64,000 nucleotides of DNA from Amycolatopsis lexingtonensis. Lineage in GTDB: Bacteria; Actinomycetota; Actinomycetes; Mycobacteriales; Pseudonocardiaceae. Positions 581-9,172 of this stretch are shown here, piece after piece. How positions within the stretch are numbered: the first letter of the stretch is position 1; every line of letters begins with the position of its first letter. The stretch lies in assembly GCF_014873755.1 (NCBI RefSeq), contig NZ_JADBEG010000001.1, positions 4,218,501 to 4,282,500 of the forward strand, in the 5' to 3' direction. Made by a program: the position numbers and the translations under genes. The notes under the pieces are model-generated. The model was not told where the DNA came from. It did no database searches and was given only the letters and a program-made list of their open reading frames with translations.

Positions 581-749
581 TCGCCCGTTGGGCCGATTGT
601 GTTACTTACGGCACTATGACGTTTCGGGAGCGAGTGAGGTTCCACCGGGGTCCGATCCGGTCCGGGGTCCGTGGCGGGCGTTCCCGGTCCGGCGACACCG
701 GACACCGGACCAACAGTCGTGAACGGCGGCGGCCCGCAAGGTCCGGCGC

Positions 750-787
750 GTGGCGGGCGGGGCCGGGCACCCGCCCCCGCCCGCCAC
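750..787 (-). terminator. GC-rich hairpin, likely terminator
   Basis: A perfect 13-bp inverted repeat (GTGGCGGGCGGGG at 750-762, its complement at 775-787) with a 12-nt loop lies directly 3' of the secreted-protein gene ending at 791. There is no T-run, as is common for actinobacterial terminators. It would end the minus-strand STAND/inhibitor unit. Confidence 0.6.
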
Positions 788-790
788 GGT

Positions 791-1663
791 TCAGCGGTCC
801 ACCACCCCCCATGCGGTGGTGAGCCGCACTTGGCGGGCTTTCGCGAGCGCCTCGAACTCCCCGCTCCGCTCCTCGATCGCCCGCCGCTGGTACGCCGTCT
901 CCACCGCCAGCCACGTCCCGGCCAGGCCGGTCCGCGCGCGGCACGCCAGATCCGCCCGGGCGACGCGGATCTCCTCCGGCGTCGGCGACGGCCCGCTCCA
1001 CCGGACGTCGTCGTTGGCCGCCCACACGTCGGCGTACCGCTCCCCCGACTCGGCCATGCACCCGCGCCACCCGGCCATCGCCGCCTGAACGCGCGGATCG
1101 GCCTGCGCGGTCAGGAAAAGCTCGCGGTCGAGCCGGGCGAAAGCCTCGCCCGGCAAGGCCGCCGGCACGCCCTCCTCGAGCCGGCGGCGGGCTTCGCCGA
1201 GGCAGCCGCCGTCGGGGACCGGCTGCCCGTGCGCCTCCGACGTTCCCTTGCCGGTGTAGACCATCAGCACGTCGAGCGGCGGCTGCGGCTCCGCCGGACG
1301 ATCCGGTGGCTCCACCGGGTGGTAGCCGAGCCGGGCGACCTCCGCGGCGTCCACGATCCCGTAGCGGCCGCCCGCCGCCGGCCGGAACGCGTCCACCGCG
1401 TCGGCCGACGGCGGAGCCCACAGGTAGCCGAACCGGGCCAGGCAGTCCCGGGCCAGCAGGGCGGTGGCCCGCTCGATCACGTTGACCTCGGCGGCGGAGT
1501 GCCGGTAGGCGTCGAACGGGAGCACGACGTCCGCCCCCGAGGCGACCGCGTGCACCGGCCCGATCGGCGGCGGCCCGGGTTCCGCGGCATCGCCCGCCGA
1601 AAGGGCGATGCCGCACCCGAGCGCCGCCACGACGAGCGCCGCGGCGATCCGCGCCGTCCTCAT
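791..1663 (-). CDS. Secreted protein of unknown function, Cys-containing
   Basis: A 290-residue protein with a clear Sec signal peptide (MRTARIAAALVVAALGC..., cleavage probably near AGDAA). The mature part has spaced cysteines in WRGCMAESG and ADLACRART contexts, a pattern seen in a poorly described family of actinobacterial exported proteins; no enzyme motif is visible. The start at 1663 was chosen because its ATG overlaps the stop of the upstream inhibitor gene in an ATGA arrangement and because it exposes the signal peptide, whereas the open frame further upstream reads through the inhibitor gene. Translational coupling suggests the two secreted proteins are made together. Function unknown. 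Confidence 0.7.
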   Translation of the reverse strand: MRTARIAAALVVAALGCGIALSAGDAAEPGPPPIGPVHAVASGADVVLPFDAYRHSAAEVNVIERATALLARDCLARFGYLWAPPSADAVDAFRPAAGGRYGIVDAAEVARLGYHPVEPPDRPAEPQPPLDVLMVYTGKGTSEAHGQPVPDGGCLGEARRRLEEGVPAALPGEAFARLDRELFLTAQADPRVQAAMAGWRGCMAESGERYADVWAANDDVRWSGPSPTPEEIRVARADLACRARTGLAGTWLAVETAYQRRAIEERSGEFEALAKARQVRLTTAWGVVDR

Positions 1664-2100
1664 CCGTAGTACGTGCCGCAGGCGATGTTGAAGTGGTGGG
1701 AGTTCATCACGTCGTTGGCCACCCAGCCGTCGTGGCTGTCGCCGGAGAGCCGGACGTCCGCGAAGTTCCGCACCGTGCCGCTCGACCGGATCGTGAAGCA
1801 CGACCCGCGGTACCCCGAGTTGTAGTAGACGGCGATCGGGGAGTTGGTGTCCTTGTTCTCCATCGAGCTGACGTTGTTGTACGTCCCGTCGCCCGCCCAC
1901 AGCGGGATGCTGGTGCCCGCGTACCGCAGGTTCCCCCAGTTGGCCTGGCTGTTGAAGTTCTCGAACTTGTACCCGCCCAGGTCGGAGTTCGAGTACATGC
2001 ACGCGTACTGGGCCCGGCACGCGGCTTCGGCCGAGCCGGCCGCGCCGACTCCGACCGTCGCCGCGACGGCCACCGCGGCCACCACTGCTGCTGCTTTCAT
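1660..2100 (-). CDS. Secreted peptidase inhibitor, family I36-like
   Basis: A 146-residue exported protein: signal peptide MKAAAVVAAVAVAATVGVGAAGSAEA, then a compact domain beginning CRAQYACMYSNSDLGGYKFENF. The Cys-x-Tyr-x-x-x-DLGG pattern and the overall beta-crystallin-like composition match the Streptomyces metalloproteinase inhibitor type (peptidase inhibitor family I36). The start at 2100 follows GGAGGG with five-base spacing. It lies 31 bp after the HTH-STAND gene and overlaps the next secreted protein, so it is probably co-transcribed with the STAND gene, an unusual partner. The family assignment is from motif recall; target proteases are unknown. Confidence 0.8.
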   Translation of the reverse strand: MKAAAVVAAVAVAATVGVGAAGSAEAACRAQYACMYSNSDLGGYKFENFNSQANWGNLRYAGTSIPLWAGDGTYNNVSSMENKDTNSPIAVYYNSGYRGSCFTIRSSGTVRNFADVRLSGDSHDGWVANDVMNSHHFNIACGTYYG

Positions 2101-2131
2101 GGTTCCCTCCTCGTTTCCGGTGATCACAGGT

Positions 2132-3688
2132 TCAGCGCTCGGCGTTGTCCGGCGCCGGAGCCGGCGCGCCGGACGACAAAGGTCCGGACATCACCGCGGC
2201 GGACGGCGGGCCGCAGCCGCCGCTGTCGAACGGGGCCGGGAACGAGAGCACGAGCACGGCCGCGAGCACCGCGACGTGCCGTCCGTGCCGCGCCCGGCGG
2301 GGCCGGTCCTCCGCCGCGACGCTGGCCTCGAGGTAGGTCCGCTCGTGCGTGGTGAGGTGCCGCGGGTGCGCGGCCCACTCGCGGACGGCGGCCAGGTGCG
2401 CGCCGCGCAGGAGCAGGCTCGGGTCGCGGTGGTGGCGGCGCCAGGCGGCGGCCGCCTGGGTGAGTTCGCAGTGAGTGCGCCGCCCGGCGCCGTCGCCCTC
2501 TAGCCAGGTGGCCAGGCGCGGCCAGGCGGCGAGCAGCGCTTCGTGGGCGAGCCGGAGCCGGTGGGCGTCGCGCACGAGCACCCGGGCCCGGACGAACCGG
2601 TCGACCACGCCGGCGGTGAGCGGGGTGTCGTCGAGTTCCTCGGCACCGACGGCCCGGAGGCCTTCGCCGGGGTCGGCGAGCCGGCGGAACAGGTCACGGG
2701 CGACGGCCTGCCCGGCCCGGCCGAGCGCGGCGTACCCGGCTTCCGCGGCACCGGCCAGTGGCGCGCCGAACTCCCCCGCCGCCTGGAACCCCGCGAGGGT
2801 CAGGCGGCTGCCGCTGCGCCGCCGCCACGTCTCCAGCAGCACCTGCGACAGCCACGGCAACGCCCCGGGCCGCCCGTGGGCGAGCGCGACGGCCGTGGCC
2901 AGCAGCGGGGTTTCGACCATGCACCGGGCCCGCGCGGCCGGGCCGGTGATCGCCTGGCGCAGTTCGTCGGCGGTCATCGGCCCGACCTCGACGCGGGCCG
3001 GCGCCTCGCCCGGGCCGAGGAGTTCGGCGCAGCGGTCGGCGAAGTCCGCGCGCACCGCGAGCACCACCCGCGCCCCGCGCAGCGTGCCGATCACCCGTTC
3101 CCGCTCGCCGGGGCCGAGCGCGAACAGCTCTTCGCACTGGTCGACGACGACCAGCGGTTCGCCATCGGGCAGGCGCAGGTCCCCCGCGGTGGCCGGGGTC
3201 GTAAAGACGACGGGGCCGGTGAGCCGGGGCAGGAGCCCGGCCCGCAGGAGCGACGTCTTCCCGGACCCCGACGGGCCGGTCACGACCACGCTCCGGTGGG
3301 CGGCGATCCGCGCGAGCAGGGTGTCGGCGAGCCGGTCCCGGCCGAAGAAGAACTCGGCGTCCGCACGGTCATAGGCGTCGAGCCCGCGATAAGGCGCGGA
3401 GTCGCCGGCCGGGGCCGGGGTGGTCAGTTCGGCCGCCGTCGAGCGCCAGCGGCGTTCCCACGCGTCGGCGTCGCCGTCGCACGCGCGGACGTACGCGAGG
3501 GTCACCGCCAGGCTCGGCAGCCGGCGCCCGCCCGCGGCGTCGGACAGCGTGGTGGCGGAGAAGTGGGCCCGCCGCGCCAGTTCGCGGTAGGACGGGTTCC
3601 CCGCGTTCTCCCGCAGCGCCCGCAGGCCGGCCGCGAACGCGGTCAGCGCGGAGCCGTCCGGTTCGAGGGGGTTCTCAGCGCGCGGCAC
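2132..3688 (-). CDS. HTH domain plus nSTAND1-type P-loop NTPase, no sensor propeller
   Basis: A 518-residue protein. Residues about 15-80 form an XRE-like helix-turn-helix (YRELARRAHFSATTLSDAAGG). YRGLDAYDRADAEFFFGR at about 100-117 is the conserved entry into the nSTAND1 ATPase, followed by Walker A GPSGSGKTS (138-146) and Walker B VVVDQCEE (181-187). A hydrophobic segment at about 472-486 is probably membrane-spanning. In most actinobacterial relatives this segment is followed by a long WD40 propeller; here the protein stops after about 30 more residues. It may therefore be a natural short form or a truncated sensor. The start is GTG at 3688, overlapping the small upstream gene by 14 bp. 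Confidence 0.85.
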   Translation of the reverse strand: MPRAENPLEPDGSALTAFAAGLRALRENAGNPSYRELARRAHFSATTLSDAAGGRRLPSLAVTLAYVRACDGDADAWERRWRSTAAELTTPAPAGDSAPYRGLDAYDRADAEFFFGRDRLADTLLARIAAHRSVVVTGPSGSGKTSLLRAGLLPRLTGPVVFTTPATAGDLRLPDGEPLVVVDQCEELFALGPGERERVIGTLRGARVVLAVRADFADRCAELLGPGEAPARVEVGPMTADELRQAITGPAARARCMVETPLLATAVALAHGRPGALPWLSQVLLETWRRRSGSRLTLAGFQAAGEFGAPLAGAAEAGYAALGRAGQAVARDLFRRLADPGEGLRAVGAEELDDTPLTAGVVDRFVRARVLVRDAHRLRLAHEALLAAWPRLATWLEGDGAGRRTHCELTQAAAAWRRHHRDPSLLLRGAHLAAVREWAAHPRHLTTHERTYLEASVAAEDRPRRARHGRHVAVLAAVLVLSFPAPFDSGGCGPPSAAVMSGPLSSGAPAPAPDNAER

Positions 3689-3860
3689 GGCTCACCGCGG
3701 TCCCGGGCAGGCCGCTCGCGGTGGCGGCGGGCGGCTGCCCCGCCGAAGCGAGGCAGAACCCGCTGACCAGCCCGGCGAGCAGGAGGACGGCGGCCAGCTT
3801 GAAGGCGAGCGAGACCGGTAGGTGCACACACATCACAGGCCCTTTTCGTCGTTTCGACAT
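3675..3860 (-). CDS. Small membrane peptide, leader gene of the STAND unit
   Basis: A 61-residue peptide, MSKRRKGPVMC..., with a basic N-terminus and one hydrophobic segment (about residues 15-40, LAFKLAAVLLLAGLVSGFCLASAG), so either a membrane anchor or an exported peptide. It overlaps the start of the HTH-STAND gene by 14 bp. The ATG at 3860 sits about 11 bases after a good -10 box, so the mRNA would be almost leaderless; an internal ATG at 3833 is an alternative. No homologue is recognised; it is kept because promoter, start and downstream overlap fit together. Confidence 0.5.
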   Translation of the reverse strand: MSKRRKGPVMCVHLPVSLAFKLAAVLLLAGLVSGFCLASAGQPPAATASGLPGTAVSRAAR

Positions 3861-3871
3861 TAACTGCGTTC

Positions 3872-3901
3872 AGGTTAGAACGCGCGCCGACTTTGCGTCA
3901 A
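3872..3901 (-). promoter_or_regulatory. Sigma70-type promoter for the minus-strand STAND unit
   Basis: On the minus strand TTGACG (3901-3896) and TAACCT (3877-3872) are separated by 18 bases. Transcription would begin around 3866, a few bases before the ATG at 3860. It lies back to back with the promoter of the Nudix-PNP unit. Confidence 0.6.
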
Positions 3902-3920
3902 GGTGACATGAAGCTAGGCT
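3893..3920 (+). promoter_or_regulatory. Promoter for the Nudix-PNP-STAND unit, leaderless start
   Basis: TTGCGT (3893-3898) and TAGGCT (3915-3920) are spaced by 16 bases. The GTG at 3927 lies six bases after the -10 box, where transcription should start, so the Nudix gene is probably translated from a leaderless mRNA. The -35 region overlaps that of the divergent unit, so the two STAND units may be co-regulated. Confidence 0.55.
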
Positions 3921-3926
3921 TGCGGC

Positions 3927-4670
3927 GTGCCCCAGGACACGACATGGCAGATCCCGAAGGTCGCGGTCGCCGTCGACCTCGCGATCCTCACCGTCCGCGA
4001 AGAGCGGCTGAACATCCTGCTCGTCGAGCGGGCGGAAGAGCCCTACCGCGGGCAGCTCGCGCTCCCCGGCGGGTTCATCGCCTCCGAAGACGAGGACATC
4101 GACGTCGCCGCGGCCCGCGAGCTGGCCGAAGAGACCGGCCTGGCGGCCGGACGGCTGCATCTGGAACAGTTGCGGACCTACGGTGGTCCGGACCGTGATC
4201 CTCGGGGGAGGGTGGTGACCGTGTGCTACCTGGCGCTGGTGCCGGACCTGCCGATCCCGTCGGCGGGCGGGGACGCGCGCGCCGCGCGCTGGGAAGCGGT
4301 CCGCGACGTCGAACGCACGGACGCGCCGGTGGCCTTCGACCACCGGACGATCATCGCCGACGCGGTGGAGCGGGCGCGCGGCAAGCTCGAGTACACGACG
4401 CTGGCCGCGGCGTTCTGCCCGGCCGAGTTCACGATCAGCGAGCTGCGGCGGGTGTACGAGATCGTCTGGGGCCACCGCCTCGACCACCGCAACTTCCACC
4501 GCAAGATCACCGGGGTGGCAGGGTTCCTCGTGCCGACCGGTGACCGGACCGCGCGGGACGGCGGGCGCCCGGCCGCGCTCTACCGGCGTGGCCCGGCGAC
4601 GGTGCTGCACCCGCCGATCCTCCGCGGGCACGACCCGAACGACGCAGAAAGCGAGACCACCACCCCGTGA
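3927..4670 (+). CDS. NrtR-type protein: Nudix domain plus winged HTH
   Basis: A 247-residue protein. Residues about 10-150 form a Nudix fold with the Nudix box GGFIASEDEDID...RELAEETGL; the catalytic REL-EE core is intact, with one extra residue between the first Gly and Glu compared with the strict consensus. Residues about 160-235 (FTISELRRVYEIVWG..LDHRNFHRKI...RPAALYRRG) match the winged-helix domain of NrtR regulators, which sense ADP-ribose and control NAD metabolism genes. It could be a transcription factor, an ADP-ribose/nucleotide pyrophosphatase, or both. It is the first gene of a tightly overlapping operon (GTGA overlap) with two nucleosidase-like proteins, which hints that the ligand is an NAD- or nucleoside-derived compound. 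Confidence 0.85.
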   Translation: MPQDTTWQIPKVAVAVDLAILTVREERLNILLVERAEEPYRGQLALPGGFIASEDEDIDVAAARELAEETGLAAGRLHLEQLRTYGGPDRDPRGRVVTVCYLALVPDLPIPSAGGDARAARWEAVRDVERTDAPVAFDHRTIIADAVERARGKLEYTTLAAAFCPAEFTISELRRVYEIVWGHRLDHRNFHRKITGVAGFLVPTGDRTARDGGRPAALYRRGPATVLHPPILRGHDPNDAESETTTP

Positions 4671-5407
4671 ACGGCATTCCGGAACCCCCGATCGTGGTGC
4701 TGACCGCGCTGGAAGTGGAGTACGCGGCCGTCCGCGCGCTGCTGGCCGACCGCCGGGTGGAGACCCACCCGTCGGGCACCCGGTTCGAAGTGGGCCGGCC
4801 TCCGGGCGGCCGCGGCTCGGCCGTGCTCGCGCTGACCGGGCAGGGGAACCAGGCGTCGGCCATCCTCGCCGAGCGCGCGATCACCACGTTCGCGCCGCGG
4901 GCGCTGCTGTTCGTGGGCGTCGCCGGCGCGCTGCACGACGACCTCGAACCCGGCGACGTCGTCGTGGGCACCAAGGTCTACGGCTACCACGGCGGCAAGG
5001 ACGAGGACGGCGGCTTCCGCGCCCGGCCGCAGGCGTGGGAAATCCCTTACGAGCTCGACCAGATCGCCCGGCACGTCGCCCGCGAAGAGGAGTGGCTCCC
5101 GGACGAGCGCCGTCCGCCGGTGCACTTCCGGCCGATCGCCGCCGGCGAGGTCGTGCTCAATTCGCGCACCACCCCGCTGGCCGAGCAGCTGCGCACGAAC
5201 TACGACGACGCCGCCGCGATCGAAATGGAAAGCGCGGGCGTCGCGAAAGCGGGTCACCTCAACCGCAACCTGCCGGTCGTCGCCGTCCGCGGCATCAGCG
5301 ACAAGGCCGACGGCCACAAGCACACCGCCGACAAGGCCGGCTGGCAGCCCGTCGCGGCGGCCAACGCGGCCGCGTTCGCCTTCGCGCTGGCCGCCGAGCT
5401 CCCGTGA
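4667..5407 (+). CDS. Stand-alone nucleoside phosphorylase/nucleosidase-like protein (PNP_UDP fold)
   Basis: A 246-residue single-domain protein of the PNP/UDP phosphorylase superfamily, closest in motif layout to MTA/SAH nucleosidases. TALEVEYAAV (catalytic-site Glu at 16 or 18), LTGQGNQASA, FVGVAGALHDDLEPGDVVV, IEMESAG (Glu186/Glu188, ribose binding) and RGISDKAD (Asp212, the position of the catalytic acid) are all present. It should therefore be able to cleave or phosphorolyse an N-glycosidic bond, but the base specificity cannot be read. The GTG start overlaps the Nudix stop and the gene's own stop overlaps the start of the next gene, whose N-terminal domain is a diverged copy of this protein. 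Confidence 0.85.
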   Translation: MNGIPEPPIVVLTALEVEYAAVRALLADRRVETHPSGTRFEVGRPPGGRGSAVLALTGQGNQASAILAERAITTFAPRALLFVGVAGALHDDLEPGDVVVGTKVYGYHGGKDEDGGFRARPQAWEIPYELDQIARHVAREEEWLPDERRPPVHFRPIAAGEVVLNSRTTPLAEQLRTNYDDAAAIEMESAGVAKAGHLNRNLPVVAVRGISDKADGHKHTADKAGWQPVAAANAAAFAFALAAELP

Positions 5408-8400
5408 CCGCCACCGTCGTCGTGCTGACCGCGCTGGAGGCGGAATACGCGGCGGTGCGGACGTTGCTGGCCAACCGCCGGGTGACGACGCACCCCTCGG
5501 GCACGCGGTTCGAGGTCGGCGAGCCGCCCGCCGGCCGGGCCACGATCGTCCTCGCGCTCACCGGCCAGGGCAACCAGGGCGCCGCCGTCCTCACCGAACG
5601 CGCCATCGCCACGTTCGGGCCCAGCGCGCTGGTGTTCGCCGGCATCGCCGGGGCGCTGCACGACGACCTCGCGCCCGGGGACGTCGTGGTGGCGACGAAG
5701 GTCTACGGCTACCACGGCGGCAAGGACGCCGACGGCGGCTTCCGAACCCGGCCGCAGGCCTGGGAAATCCCGCACCACCTCGACCAGCTGGCCCGGCACG
5801 TCGCCCGCGAAGAGAACTGGCTCCCCGGCGGGCACCACCCGCCGGTGCACTTCCGGCCGATCGCCGCCGGGGAAGTCGTCCTCGGCTCCCGCACCGGCCC
5901 GCTGGCCGAGCAGCTGCGCGCGCACTACGACGACGCCGCCGCGGTCGAAATGGAAAGTGCGGGCGTCGCCAAAGCCGGGCACCTCAACCACGGCTTGCCG
6001 GTGCTGACCGTCCGGGGCATCGGCGACGGCGGGGCGCACGCCGTCGCGGCCGCGCACGCCGCCGCGTTCGCACTGGCCCTCGCCGCCGAGATCCCGGAAC
6101 GGCCGAGCACCGTGACGGCGGGGCTGCCCTGGCCGTACCGGACCGGCGTGGTCCCCGTCCGCGCGGACGGCTTCCAGGACCGCGAGATCCCGTTCGACGG
6201 CACCACGGTGCTGTCCGGGCTGGGCGGCGTCGGCAAGACGCAGCTGGCCGCGGACCACGCGGAACGCGCGTGGGCCGGGCGCGAGGTCGACCTGCTGGCC
6301 TGGATCGGCGCGGACTCCCGTGACGCGGTCCTCACGGCCTACGCGCAGCTCGCGAAGACGCTCACTGGCATCGAGGACCCGGATCCCGCGCAGGGCGCGC
6401 GCCGCCTACTCGACTGGCTGGCCACGACGCCGAAGCGCTGGCTGCTGGTGCTGGACGACGTGCAGCACCCCGCGGACCTGCAAGGACTCTGGCCACCGGC
6501 GTCGGAAACCGGGCGGGTCGTGCTCACCACCCGCCGACGCGACGCCGCCCTCGCCGGCGACCGGCGGCGGATCGTCGACGTCGGCCAGTTCACCACCGCG
6601 GAGTCCCGCGCCTACCTCAACCGCAAGCTCGCCGGCCGGCCGCACCTGGCCGACGACGTCGCCGGGCTGGCGGACGACCTCGGGCACCTGCCGCTGGCGC
6701 TGGCCCAGGCCGCGGCGTACGTCCTCGACCGCGACCTCCCCTGCTCGGCCTACCGGCAGCGGTTCCGGGAGCGCAAGCTGCCCGCGGTCCTGCCCGACCG
6801 GCACGGTCTCCCCGACGACCACCAGGCCACCGTGACGGCGACCTGGTCCCTGTCGGTCGCCCACGCCGACTCCCTCGAACCCGCCGGGCTGGCCGGCCCG
6901 CTGCTGCGGTTCGCGAGCGTCCTCGATCCCCACGGCATCCCGTACACCGTGCTCACCGCGCCGGCCGTCCTGGCCTTCCTGCGCAAAGCGGCCCGCCGCC
7001 GCGTGACCGCGGACGACGCCCGCGACGCGCTGGGCTGCCTGCACCGGCTGAACCTCGTGACCCTCGACCCGCAGACGGTCCGCGTGCACGCCCTCGTCCA
7101 GCGCGCGGCGCGGGACGACTTGCGCCCGAAGCACCTTTCCCGGATCACGCGCGCCGCCGCGGACGCGCTGGTGCAGGCGTGGCCGGAGATCGAGTCGGAC
7201 CGGACTCTGGCGCAAGCGTTGCGGCGCGGCACTTTCGCGCTGCAGGCCACCGGGGACGTCGAGCAGCTCTGGCGCCGGGGGTACCACGTGGTACTGCTCC
7301 AAGCGGGCCGGAGTCTCCGCGAGAGCGGGCAGCTCGGCCCGGCGATCGCTTACTTCCAGGAGCTCAGCAGTACGGCGGCGGACCGGCTCGGCGGCAACCA
7401 CCTCGACACCTCGATCGCCCGTTTCGACCTCGCGGACACGGTGGGCACCTCCGGTGATCCGCGAGCAGCGGTCACCGCGCTGAGCGCTCTGCTGGCGGTG
7501 CTGGACCTGAAACCCGGGCGCACGCACCAGCTGACGTTGACCGTGCGCAGCACCCTGGCCAGGTACCTGGGCGAGTCGGGCAACTTCGCCGGGGCGGTGA
7601 CGGTGTACGAGTACCTGCTGCCGGATCTGGAGCGGGTGCTCGGGCCCGAGCACCAAGCCACCTCCGCCACCCGCCAGAACCTCGCTGTCATGCGGAACGC
7701 CGCCGGCGACCCGTCGGGGTCGGCCGCGGTCGAGCGGTCGGTCCACGAGCGGCATCGAGCGCTCGGGCCGCTCCACCCCGACACCCTGAACGCCCGCGTC
7801 GCCTCGGCGAAGCTGCGGGGTGACGCCGGGGACAGCGAAGGAGCGATAGCCGCTTACGAAAGCGTCCTGCCGGATCTCGCGCGGGTGTTCGGGCCCGAGC
7901 ACCGCGCCACCTTGACCACCCGCGGCGCCTCGGCCGTCCTGCGAGGCGAGTCGGGCGACCTGGCCGGTGCGGCTGCCCGGCTCGAAACCTTGCTGGAGGA
8001 CCAGCACCGGGTCCTCGGCCCCGAGCACCCCGACGCGTTGAGCACGCGCCTCCACCTCGCCTGGTTCCGCGGGCTGGCCGGCGATCCGGCCCCGGCCGTG
8101 GCGGCGTACGAGGCGCTGGTTCAAGACCAGCGGCGGGTACTCGGTCCGGATCATCCCGATACCTTCACCGCCCAGCACAACCTGGCCGCGCTGCGGGCCA
8201 GGGCAGGCGATCCGGCCGGGGCGGCGGCCGTCATCGAGGGGTTGCTGCCGGAGCTGAGCCGCGTGTTCGGGCCGGACAGCCCGAACGTGCTGACCACCCG
8301 CCACAACCTGGCGCGCTTCCATGCCTTCGCGGGCGATCCGGCGGGGGCGCTGGCGACCTTGACGGACCTCCTGGCGGACCTGGACCGCGTCCTCGGGCCG

Positions 8401-8577
8401 GAGCACCCCACGACCCTGACCGCCCGCCACACCCACGCCACCCTGCGGGGCGAAACCGGGGACCGGGCGGGCGCCGTCGCGGCGCTCGAACTCCTGCTGC
8501 CCGACCTGGACCGCGTCCTCGGCCCCGGGCACCCCGAAACGTCCGGTGCCCGCGAGGACCTCACGCGCTTCCGGTGA
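5404..8577 (+). CDS. PNP-NB-ARC-TPR protein, NLR-like STAND NTPase
   Basis: A 1057-residue protein with three parts. Residues 1-230 are a PNP-fold domain very similar to the preceding free protein; TALEAEY and VEMESAG are kept, but the catalytic-acid loop is shortened (RGIGDGGAHA, about 13 residues fewer). Residues about 240-500 are an NB-ARC STAND ATPase: Walker A GLGGVGKT (272-279), Walker B LLVLDD (Asp351/352), LTTRRRD, and GHLPLA (427-432, the GLPL motif). Residues about 620-1057 hold some nine kinesin-light-chain-type TPRs of 41-42 residues with the LGPEHP(D/A)TL signature. This effector-switch-sensor order is that of NLR immune receptors and of many fungal PNP-NB-ARC proteins. The GTG start overlaps the previous stop. 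Role inferred: ligand-triggered nucleoside or NAD-related toxicity. Confidence 0.88.
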   Translation: MTATVVVLTALEAEYAAVRTLLANRRVTTHPSGTRFEVGEPPAGRATIVLALTGQGNQGAAVLTERAIATFGPSALVFAGIAGALHDDLAPGDVVVATKVYGYHGGKDADGGFRTRPQAWEIPHHLDQLARHVAREENWLPGGHHPPVHFRPIAAGEVVLGSRTGPLAEQLRAHYDDAAAVEMESAGVAKAGHLNHGLPVLTVRGIGDGGAHAVAAAHAAAFALALAAEIPERPSTVTAGLPWPYRTGVVPVRADGFQDREIPFDGTTVLSGLGGVGKTQLAADHAERAWAGREVDLLAWIGADSRDAVLTAYAQLAKTLTGIEDPDPAQGARRLLDWLATTPKRWLLVLDDVQHPADLQGLWPPASETGRVVLTTRRRDAALAGDRRRIVDVGQFTTAESRAYLNRKLAGRPHLADDVAGLADDLGHLPLALAQAAAYVLDRDLPCSAYRQRFRERKLPAVLPDRHGLPDDHQATVTATWSLSVAHADSLEPAGLAGPLLRFASVLDPHGIPYTVLTAPAVLAFLRKAARRRVTADDARDALGCLHRLNLVTLDPQTVRVHALVQRAARDDLRPKHLSRITRAAADALVQAWPEIESDRTLAQALRRGTFALQATGDVEQLWRRGYHVVLLQAGRSLRESGQLGPAIAYFQELSSTAADRLGGNHLDTSIARFDLADTVGTSGDPRAAVTALSALLAVLDLKPGRTHQLTLTVRSTLARYLGESGNFAGAVTVYEYLLPDLERVLGPEHQATSATRQNLAVMRNAAGDPSGSAAVERSVHERHRALGPLHPDTLNARVASAKLRGDAGDSEGAIAAYESVLPDLARVFGPEHRATLTTRGASAVLRGESGDLAGAAARLETLLEDQHRVLGPEHPDALSTRLHLAWFRGLAGDPAPAVAAYEALVQDQRRVLGPDHPDTFTAQHNLAALRARAGDPAGAAAVIEGLLPELSRVFGPDSPNVLTTRHNLARFHAFAGDPAGALATLTDLLADLDRVLGPEHPTTLTARHTHATLRGETGDRAGAVAALELLLPDLDRVLGPGHPETSGAREDLTRFR

Positions 8578-9172
8578 CCGCCAGCCGCAGTTCCAGGGTC
8601 CGGGCCCACTCGCGCACGATCTGCTTGCGCCGCTTGGTGTCGTCGGTCAGCAGGTTCGCCAGGCCGAGCCCGCGGCCCAGGTCCAGGGTGGCCTGGACCA
8701 GTTCGCGGGTGCCGGGCCGGGACTCGTCGGCGCCCAGGAGTTCCACCGTCACCCGGTGCGCCTCGCGGCCGACCCTCGCCTCCAGCGGGACCAGGACGTC
8801 CCGCAGGGCGTCGTCGGTCGCCGCGACCGCCCACAGCTGCAGGGCCGCGCGGAACAGCGGGCCGGTGTAGAGGTTCAGCACCATCTCGACGACGCGCTCG
8901 ATCCGGGACGCGCCGGTCGGCAGGTCCGCGGCCTGGGCGCGCAGCTCGTCGATCTGGGACTGCCCGAGCAGGTCGACCGCCGCCACCACGAGGTCCTCGC
9001 GGGCCGGGAAGTGGTGCTGGGCGGCGCCGCGGGAAACGCCGGCCCGCTCGGCGATCCCGGCCACCGTGACGCCGTGCCAGCCGCGCTCGCCGAAGCTGTC
9101 GAGCGCGGCTTCGATCAGCCGCCGCCGCGTGGTGCGGCTGCGTTCCTGCTGGGGTTCGCGGACGCCGGTCAA
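8561..9172 (-). CDS. TetR family transcriptional regulator
   Basis: A 203-residue repressor. RRRLIEAALDSFGERGWHGVTVAGIAERAGVSRGAAQHHFPAREDLVVAA is a textbook TetR N-terminal HTH; the C-terminal helical ligand domain shows no specific motif. The TTG at 9172 overlaps the stop of the SDR gene (TTGA), which decides the start; the frame is open further upstream but has no better start. Its 3' end overlaps the NLR-like gene by 17 bp in convergent orientation. Being the last gene of the acyl-CoA block, it is the likely controller of that block, possibly through the dyad at 18450-18467. Confidence 0.85.
   Translation of the reverse strand: MTGVREPQQERSRTTRRRLIEAALDSFGERGWHGVTVAGIAERAGVSRGAAQHHFPAREDLVVAAVDLLGQSQIDELRAQAADLPTGASRIERVVEMVLNLYTGPLFRAALQLWAVAATDDALRDVLVPLEARVGREAHRVTVELLGADESRPGTRELVQATLDLGRGLGLANLLTDDTKRRKQIVREWARTLELRLAVTGSA

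Follow-up and report, generated by a model that had tools for sequence, protein, structure and literature searches.

An operon encoding a Nudix regulator, a free PNP and a PNP-NB-ARC-TPR protein

We analysed a 64,000-nucleotide stretch of the 10.7-Mb genome of Amycolatopsis lexingtonensis (G000:C1:4218501-4282500; hereafter 'the window'), in which three open reading frames (ORFs) on the forward strand form an apparent operon. The genes, termed A (3927-4670, 247 amino acids), B (4667-5407, 246 amino acids) and C (5404-8577, 1057 amino acids), overlap by GTGA at both junctions, as an initial annotation made from the sequence alone had reported. Gene A encodes an NrtR-like Nudix domain (Pfam PF00293, 69.7 bits) followed by a winged helix (NrtR_WHD, PF21906, 61.8 bits), in agreement with the earlier assignment, and its product is a predicted autoregulator with an intact REx2EE motif. 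Gene B encodes a free PNP-fold nucleosidase (PNP_UDP_1, PF01048, 124.5 bits) that ends without a C-terminal tail. Residues E18, E188 and D212 and the stretch 213-224 are all complete in B, D212 being the catalytic acid that had been ascribed to it, and the protein thus combines a PNP fold with the catalytic Glu/Glu/Asp set of immune PNP effectors. Its AlphaFold2 (AF2) model (pLDDT 94.2) is matched by Foldseek to the fold of MTA/SAH nucleosidases (MTAN).

The product of gene C resembles a receptor. Pfam places PNP_UDP_1 at residues 4-212 and NB-ARC at 269-382, with TPR_12 and TPR_10 matches thereafter. The linker and NB-ARC switch region (residues 235-600; 6106-7203, forward strand) carries the motifs GLGGVGKT at 272, LLVLDDV at 347 and GHLPLAL at 427, and includes a DUF7779 match below that model's cut-off. 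Residues 663-1057 (7390-8574, forward strand) comprise nine full TPRs of ~42 residues and one partial repeat, starting at 663, 705, 747, 788, 830, 872, 914, 956, 998 and 1040. An N-terminal domain, an NB-ARC with Walker A and B and C-terminal repeats make up the layout of NLR-like STAND proteins, and the NLR-type order originally proposed for C, including the GLPL-type motif, is borne out by these matches. Full-length C orthologues within the same operon are present in three other genomes (G003, G005 and G084); the closest C homologue among the matches listed is P0001, from Amycolatopsis lexingtonensis (96%).

A shortened PNP copy at the N-terminus of C

The PNP copy that occupies residues 1-222 of C (5404-6069, forward strand) lacks 11 residues after D208. 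The site of the loss, recognized by alignment to B, consists of the D208 codon and the next codon (6025-6030, forward strand). In B, the corresponding residues 213-223 (5303-5335, forward strand; the exact residues depend on the alignment) form a loop and most of a short helix. Helix 218-224 of the AF2 model of B is accordingly missing from that of C, whose PNP domain still folds with a pLDDT of 95.6.

The affected region was compared across an alignment of 144 PNP sequences, from which those of loci L093-L095 were left out. Residues E18 (143 sequences), E188 (144) and D212 (143) are nearly invariant and align with the MTAN positions equivalent to Glu12, Glu174 and Asp197 of the Escherichia coli enzyme. 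Mutants of Glu12 and Asp197 are named in Protein Data Bank titles. The spacing between D212 and Q227 is 13-14 residues in 139 of the 144 proteins, B among them, 3 residues in four C copies and 0 in one copy from Lentzea. The 11-residue loss beside the catalytic Asp is common to C in all four orthologous loci (the window and L036-L038).

Evidence for when the stretch disappeared comes from more distant receptors. Our search found 1542 homologues of C, and among the best 120 of these 1542 a PNP domain is present in seven (P0001-P0005, P0039 and P0069). Six of the seven were aligned, with P0002 left out because it appears to be the C protein of L036: P0001 and P0003 have the gap, and the C-like receptors P0004, P0005, P0039 and P0069 retain the stretch. 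The PNP tree unites the C copies in one clade (support 100/99) with the intact P0005 as its sister (98/94) and gives B a clade of its own (99/98); the loss of the stretch therefore postdates the fusion. B and the PNP of C are 77-78% identical within each of the four loci, compared with 91-94% for B between genomes, and the tree separates them; on these grounds, a recent duplication and a gene conversion between the two were rejected.

A second short copy is encoded at locus L167 of Lentzea aerocolonigenes (4300-7035), where a single Nudix gene is flanked by two PNP genes. One of these PNPs has lost the Asp together with the stretch that follows it, and its E18 is changed; the other is intact and has a matched-tail protein (see below) encoded downstream. 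Among the four species that carry C, the ratio of nonsynonymous to synonymous rates (omega) is 0.13-0.29 for A, 0.16-0.24 for B, 0.26-0.44 for the PNP of C, 0.26-0.35 for its NB-ARC and 0.30-0.36 for its TPRs. The PNP of C is therefore under purifying selection that is looser than that on B and similar to that on the rest of C.

Having lost the residues next to its active-site Asp, the PNP of C is probably not a working effector, and we regard this copy as probably disabled. The domain had originally been described as the effector of an NLR-like protein; the PNP fold in that description stands, and a working enzyme probably does not.

Nudix-PNP linkage in other genomes

The initial annotation had proposed to examine the linkage of the three genes across actinobacterial genomes, and this linkage proves to be recurrent and modular. 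Within a set of 80 genomes of the genus, B used as a query matched 66 places in 38 genomes; counting each of the four tandem C copies together with its B gives 62 sites, and some genomes hold several PNP copies. An NrtR-like Nudix gene was found by tblastn at 48 of 61 genus loci (60 fetched plus the window); at L042, which has two PNP sites, one adjoins the Nudix gene. A scan of GTDB genomes confirmed at least 410 relatives, of which the best 80 from other actinomycetes were kept. A Nudix match accompanies 64 of these 80, and the linkage thus recurs in other actinomycete families. Across both sets, the Nudix and PNP genes are co-directional in 87 cases (54 with the same 4-nt overlap), divergent in 24 (gaps of 106-303 nt, and one of 960) and otherwise arranged in one. 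More broadly, in a class-level sample of 296 genomes the PNP profile matched 28 at 1e-15, and in a sample of the phylum B matched 60 of 396 genomes at 1e-3, exceeding 100 bits only in G000 (the window's genome), G346 and G294.

PNP fusions and matched tails in relatives

Relatives connect the PNP to other modules in several ways. A domain scan of 20 PNP proteins of relatives found fusions to NB-ARC-TPR in L042 (twice) and L083, as in the window, and above-cut-off fusions to NACHT with a weak LRR (L085), Sel1 (L082 and L087) and RCC1 (L076). Matches to nSTAND3 in L077 and HEAT in L070 fall below cut-off. PNP proteins of ~1320 amino acids without a Nudix match occur in five genus genomes (L085, L086, L089, L091 and L092); L085, the one that was domain-scanned, yielded the PNP, NACHT and weak LRR given above.

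The most frequent arrangement is a PNP with a C-terminal tail and a separate gene after it. In a survey of 146 PNPs (65 from the genus and 81 from other actinomycetes), 87 have a tail followed by the gene for a separate protein of 600-780 amino acids, which in 83 cases overlaps the PNP gene by 4 nt. These next proteins contain 1-4 hydrophobic segments, with 3-4 in 75 of the 87. Pfam searches of five of them (L043, L047, L050, L051 and L072) gave a single match, to DUF6232 in L051 and below cut-off, and none matched in NCBIfam (L043, L072, L101, L134 and L172) or PADLOC (L043, L101, L134 and L172). The proteins (L043, L044, L050, L101, L134 and others) possibly represent an undescribed receptor type.

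Tails were compared with the N-termini of the next proteins in 101 of 115 pairs. Left out were PNP proteins longer than 520 amino acids, the tailless loci (the window and L036-L038), PNPs with no ORF after them and one tail shorter than 20 residues (L159); probably spurious downstream ORFs that score at chance, for example in L040, L060, L095 and L168, were kept. Own pairs scored a mean of 57.5 and crossed pairs 40.9. None of 10,000 permutations reached the observed sum, and dereplication to 40 left this unchanged; against their shuffles, 85 of the 101 pairs scored z > 4. The wider pattern is 'Nudix - PNP - next protein', and in many of the relatives the tails are matched.

A near relative of the operon at L039 (genome G060; Nudix 78% and PNP 71% identical) illustrates the matching. 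Its PNP tail bears VQAGEHNTQ (...NKGVQAGEHNTQHNTF), and a separate NB-ARC-TPR protein of 887 amino acids bears VQAGHYNTQ (...NSQGVQAGHYNTQNNYY). A matched tail was searched for in the window and not found there: B has nothing beyond its PNP domain, and C begins with the second PNP, which is 77% identical to B. Two other layouts were encountered. At L041 (2988-7750), which has no Nudix match, a PNP tail (...SGITSTGDGTINIQ) and a 1280-amino-acid downstream ORF (...SGIVSTGDNAINIQ) share another type of matched motif. At L093 (6983-10350), a PNP-bDLD3 gene precedes a bDLD3-cNMP-binding-TIR gene, with bDLD3 in the place of tails.

The Nudix regulator and its operator-like palindromes

With its Nudix domain and NrtR winged helix, A qualifies as an NrtR/Nudix-related regulator in the broad sense. 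It scores below the cut-off of the ADP-ribose (ADPR)-responsive NrtR model NF050029 (143.1 bits versus 400), and its classification as a canonical NrtR was rejected on this ground. The REx2EE part of the Nudix motif is intact in A, where the first half of the Nudix motif carries one additional residue. REx2EE is likewise intact in 109 of 115 family Nudix proteins of 225-299 amino acids, although two of the 115 (L106_5256 and L163_5243) are apparently fragments read in the wrong frame. The Nudix motif is described as impaired in NAD-type NrtRs (PMC4666351), and MsNrtR as having lost hydrolase activity (PMC6800001). Another Nudix homologue, with 44% identity to A, is encoded in the window's genome at G000:C1:4994755.

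Two operator-like palindromes of the form TYGTC-N5-GACRA precede A on the forward strand, one at 3846-3860 (1 mismatch, -81 from the start of A) and the other at 3895-3909 (2 mismatches, -32). To place these in context, all 119 Nudix starts of the family, with fragments and second paralogues included, were evaluated from -130 to +12. The dyad occurs with at most 1 mismatch in 88 of the 119 upstream regions (shuffled mean 3.0, maximum 7) and with at most 2 mismatches in 112 (24.9 when shuffled). Its positions cluster, with 64 of 106 sites at -35 to -31 and 18 at -85 to -81. Of the 31 Nudix genes without a palindrome at 1 mismatch or fewer, 13 are of the L050/L061 and L072 types.

Beyond the regions from which the dyad was derived, the pattern TNGTCANNNTGACNA has 19 matches in the window's genome, compared with 1 for a reversed control pattern. 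Of these 19, the one that was examined ends 29 nt ahead of the matched frame of another Nudix paralogue at 1918741. This paralogue (G000:C1:1918697-1919409) is directly preceded by an exact operator-like site and has no family PNP match nearby, and a similar copy (61-67%) is found in many genomes of the genus.

Relation to known systems

PADLOC matches on the operon fall on its PNP domains (PN-superfamily effector and PDC-M60C), with B scoring 69.9 bits against the PN-superfamily effector. The PNP effector of Detocs is reported to cleave ATP to adenine and ribose-5'-triphosphate (Rousset et al. 2023, via PMC11249213). It is a PNP-family immune effector, a class to which B may belong, and by analogy B might also act on a nucleotide. 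Detocs itself is described as a three-gene defensive two-component system, whereas here the PNP is partnered by a Nudix regulator and an NB-ARC-TPR protein; no kinase or receiver domain was found in A, C or the neighbouring nSTAND1 protein (Pfam, E <= 0.001). No cyclase, Avs or NACHT family that would mark CBASS, Avs or bNACHT is among the matches of A, B and C (Pfam and PADLOC, E <= 0.001), and the parent system of PDLC00759 was not identified.

Protein C exceeds the cut-off for the FxSxx-COOH system TPR protein (NF040586, 406.4 bits versus 300) over residues 261-1051 only. No CxxxCxxC motif of a radical-SAM partner is present in any stop-to-stop frame longer than 250 amino acids in the window, and the only two FxSxx-ending frames within 20 kb are both antisense over other genes. 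This assignment was dropped, given that neither peptide nor radical-SAM partner was found.

The matched tails also have parallels. Fungal PNP_UDP effectors and NLRs are paired through C-terminal and N-terminal PUASM amyloid motifs (PMC9815663), much as in L039, L043 and other relatives. Unlike the fungal pairs, the present systems are bacterial, include a Nudix regulator and usually have a next protein of 600-780 amino acids with several hydrophobic segments; the window differs further in having no motif and a receptor that bears a copy of the enzyme. In multicellular bacteria, the paired effector and receptor motifs BASS 1-10 (Dyrka et al. 2020, via PMC8086366, PMC12261475 and PMC9815663) are found on Bell-NLR pairs. 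By eye, the VQxGxxNTQ pair of L039 looks like the RHIM-like BASS3.

Shared domains on effector and sensor are also used by bDLD3/EAD-wired systems (Kaur et al. 2020, 2021; PMC7159879 and PMC8195603), in which PNPase is among the effectors and bDLD3-PNPase fusions have been described (PMC8195603). There the shared domain is a dedicated adaptor, a part that in the window would be played by the enzyme domain. PMC8195603 has 0 mentions of 'Nudix', and PMC7159879 has one, among effector-type domains. NrtR and AraR repressors (PMC6800001 and PMC4666351) have the same Nudix domain and winged helix as A, and MsNrtR is an auto-repressor that acts at the palindrome GTTTTCGA-N7-TCGAAAAC. Gene A differs in its palindrome, in its intact REx2EE and in adjoining a PNP operon rather than NAD or arabinose genes. 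No Nudix-PNP-receptor operon was seen among the open-licence literature matches listed.

Possible wiring of the receptor to a separate enzyme

We consider it likely that the operon belongs to a conserved NLR-type Nudix-PNP module. The fuller explanation, in which a 'Nudix - PNP effector - receptor' module is widespread among actinobacteria and the operon represents one of its branches, acting through the steps below, is evenly poised in our judgement. Given its family and the operator-like sites, A might repress the operon at the two palindromes and be released by, or also hydrolyse, an adenine-nucleotide or ribose-phosphate metabolite that accumulates. The architecture of C suggests that its TPRs could sense an invader or stress signal and that its NB-ARC would then oligomerize. 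The PNP copy of C, folded but without the stretch near the active site, would by its anatomy not perform the main catalysis; it would bind free B through a normal PNP-PNP contact and either gather the active enzyme or hold and then release it. By analogy with the Detocs PNP, B might then strip the base from a nucleotide and halt cell growth. In this scheme, the enzyme copy in C would replace the matched amyloid-like tails that appear to connect the PNP and the next protein in many relatives.

A docking or holding role of C's PNP toward B falls only just short of an even chance. More tentative is the complete proposal, which we place somewhat below even, that the receptor recruits or restrains a free enzyme through an inactivated copy of its catalytic domain. 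The PNP would then serve both as weapon and as adaptor, in place of the amyloid-like tails of sister operons. The disabled copy would have arisen at least twice (in Amycolatopsis and, with another layout, in Lentzea), and the operon would be part of an immune family of actinobacterial Nudix-PNP-receptor systems, undescribed so far, whose members share a single operator.

Several observations weigh against the fuller explanation. The catalytic residues E14, E184 and D208 are kept in C's PNP, which may still have activity, and the pattern of stretch loss amounts to two independent events only. Proteins alone were compared for the intact-PNP receptors P0004, P0005, P0039 and P0069, which might also have a free PNP beside them. 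Among the tail pairs, 11 of 101 fall below z 2, and since one motif is common to many loci, no more than 10 of 101 PNPs score best with their own partner. The upstream regions that yielded the operator consensus were also those used to count it, and they come in many cases from closely related loci. Lastly, no Nudix match lies in the sequence fetched for 13 of 61 genus loci (L040, L041, L082, L084-L086, L088, L089 and L091-L095) or for 16 of 80 loci from other actinomycetes, among which L104 has only 0.4 kb upstream.

The retained catalytic residues, the good folding of the model and the purifying selection would also suit a pair of active enzymes, in which an open pocket beside the Asp gives C's PNP an altered substrate range and B has a different specificity. 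We judge this unlikely, in that 139 of 144 PNPs retain the complete stretch, including ones fused to several kinds of C-terminal module, and the Lentzea short copy has lost E18 and the Asp outright. Still less probable is that C's PNP is superfluous beside B and passively eroding, with no wiring role and B activated in some other way. Its constraint is looser than that on B, and the stretch was lost once and then inherited, two points in favour of erosion. Against this, the domain has stayed in frame in four species while evolving at about the rate of the NB-ARC and TPRs (omega < 0.5), and no tail is visible that could link B and C.

A role outside immunity, as a nucleotide-stress or developmental regulator whose Nudix and PNP proteins handle damaged or signalling nucleotides and whose receptor-like proteins are scaffolds, appears about as improbable as decay. 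PADLOC matched the operon only with PNP-domain models and its relatives only with PNP and TPR models, and the right-flank genes look metabolic from their translations. However, presence in 38 of 80 genus genomes is patchy, the site is empty of the operon in 10 of 10 relatives, and both this distribution and the swapping of C-terminal modules (NB-ARC-TPR, NACHT, Sel1 and RCC1, with nSTAND3, LRR and HEAT below cut-off) along with matched tails are typical of conflict systems. That B is a housekeeping MTA/SAH nucleosidase present by chance, as its MTAN fold and similarity might suggest, is very improbable and was dropped, because B misses the MTAN cut-offs (NF004079, 85.2 versus 169 bits; TIGR01704, 55 versus 73.8) and its relatives are Nudix-linked in other actinomycetes and multicopy in some genomes.

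If the receptor does act on B through the shortened copy, this sequence-based reading points to a wiring between receptor and weapon that would be new. Both bacteria and fungi have immune-type proteins with PNP effectors. Natural variants of one connection (direct fusion, matched tails and a shortened enzyme copy) coexist in this family, so the wiring is open to simple deletion tests. From the recurrence of a Nudix regulator, it seems that a product of the PNP enzyme may be monitored by the cell; if true, this would tie nucleotide sensing to NLR-type immunity in bacteria. The convergence of enzyme and sensor on NAD proposed in the initial annotation stands as an inference, A scoring under the ADPR-NrtR cut-off and B under those for MTAN.

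The variable block and a divergent nSTAND1 gene

The operon lies at the right end of a variable block of ~7.9 kb (667-8579), which 10 of 10 relatives fetched lack at the corresponding site. An SDR gene on the right flank, where the genes appear metabolic, is matched in 65 of the 80 genus genomes, four of which have the operon. In the ten genomes fetched from the remaining 61, both flanks are there, and nSTAND1, A, B and C are absent from the site. The flanks are separated by 22 bp in L192, by 0.1-0.6 kb in L185, L186, L188-L190 and L194, and by other sequence of 1.7-3.5 kb in L187, L191 and L193. A defence hot spot at this site was considered and dropped, given that these last three fillers show no obvious defence genes by eye, with no family search made on them. 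Right-side homology starts again at 8580-8592, directly past the stop codon of C.

Divergent from the operon is an nSTAND1 gene (2132-3688, reverse strand; Pfam PF20703, 288.8 bits) whose product looks XRE-like at its N-terminus, with no HTH match in Pfam, and has a weak PADLOC match to mad8 (17.1 bits). The gene adjoins the operon in five loci, namely the four that carry C and L039, and the copies in L036-L039 are 53-83% identical; at 1e-15 none was found in the other loci of both sets, including L040 and L041. In the genome of L039, the operon resides at a different chromosomal place from the SDR gene (3.27 Mb versus 1.10 Mb). The stretch 661-2096 is missing in L036, so the smallest common unit is nSTAND1-A-B-C. 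Within the variable block, a reverse-strand gene at 1660-2127, with a tblastn match in L037 and L038 and none in L036 or L039, encodes a small secreted-looking protein that may be I36-like.

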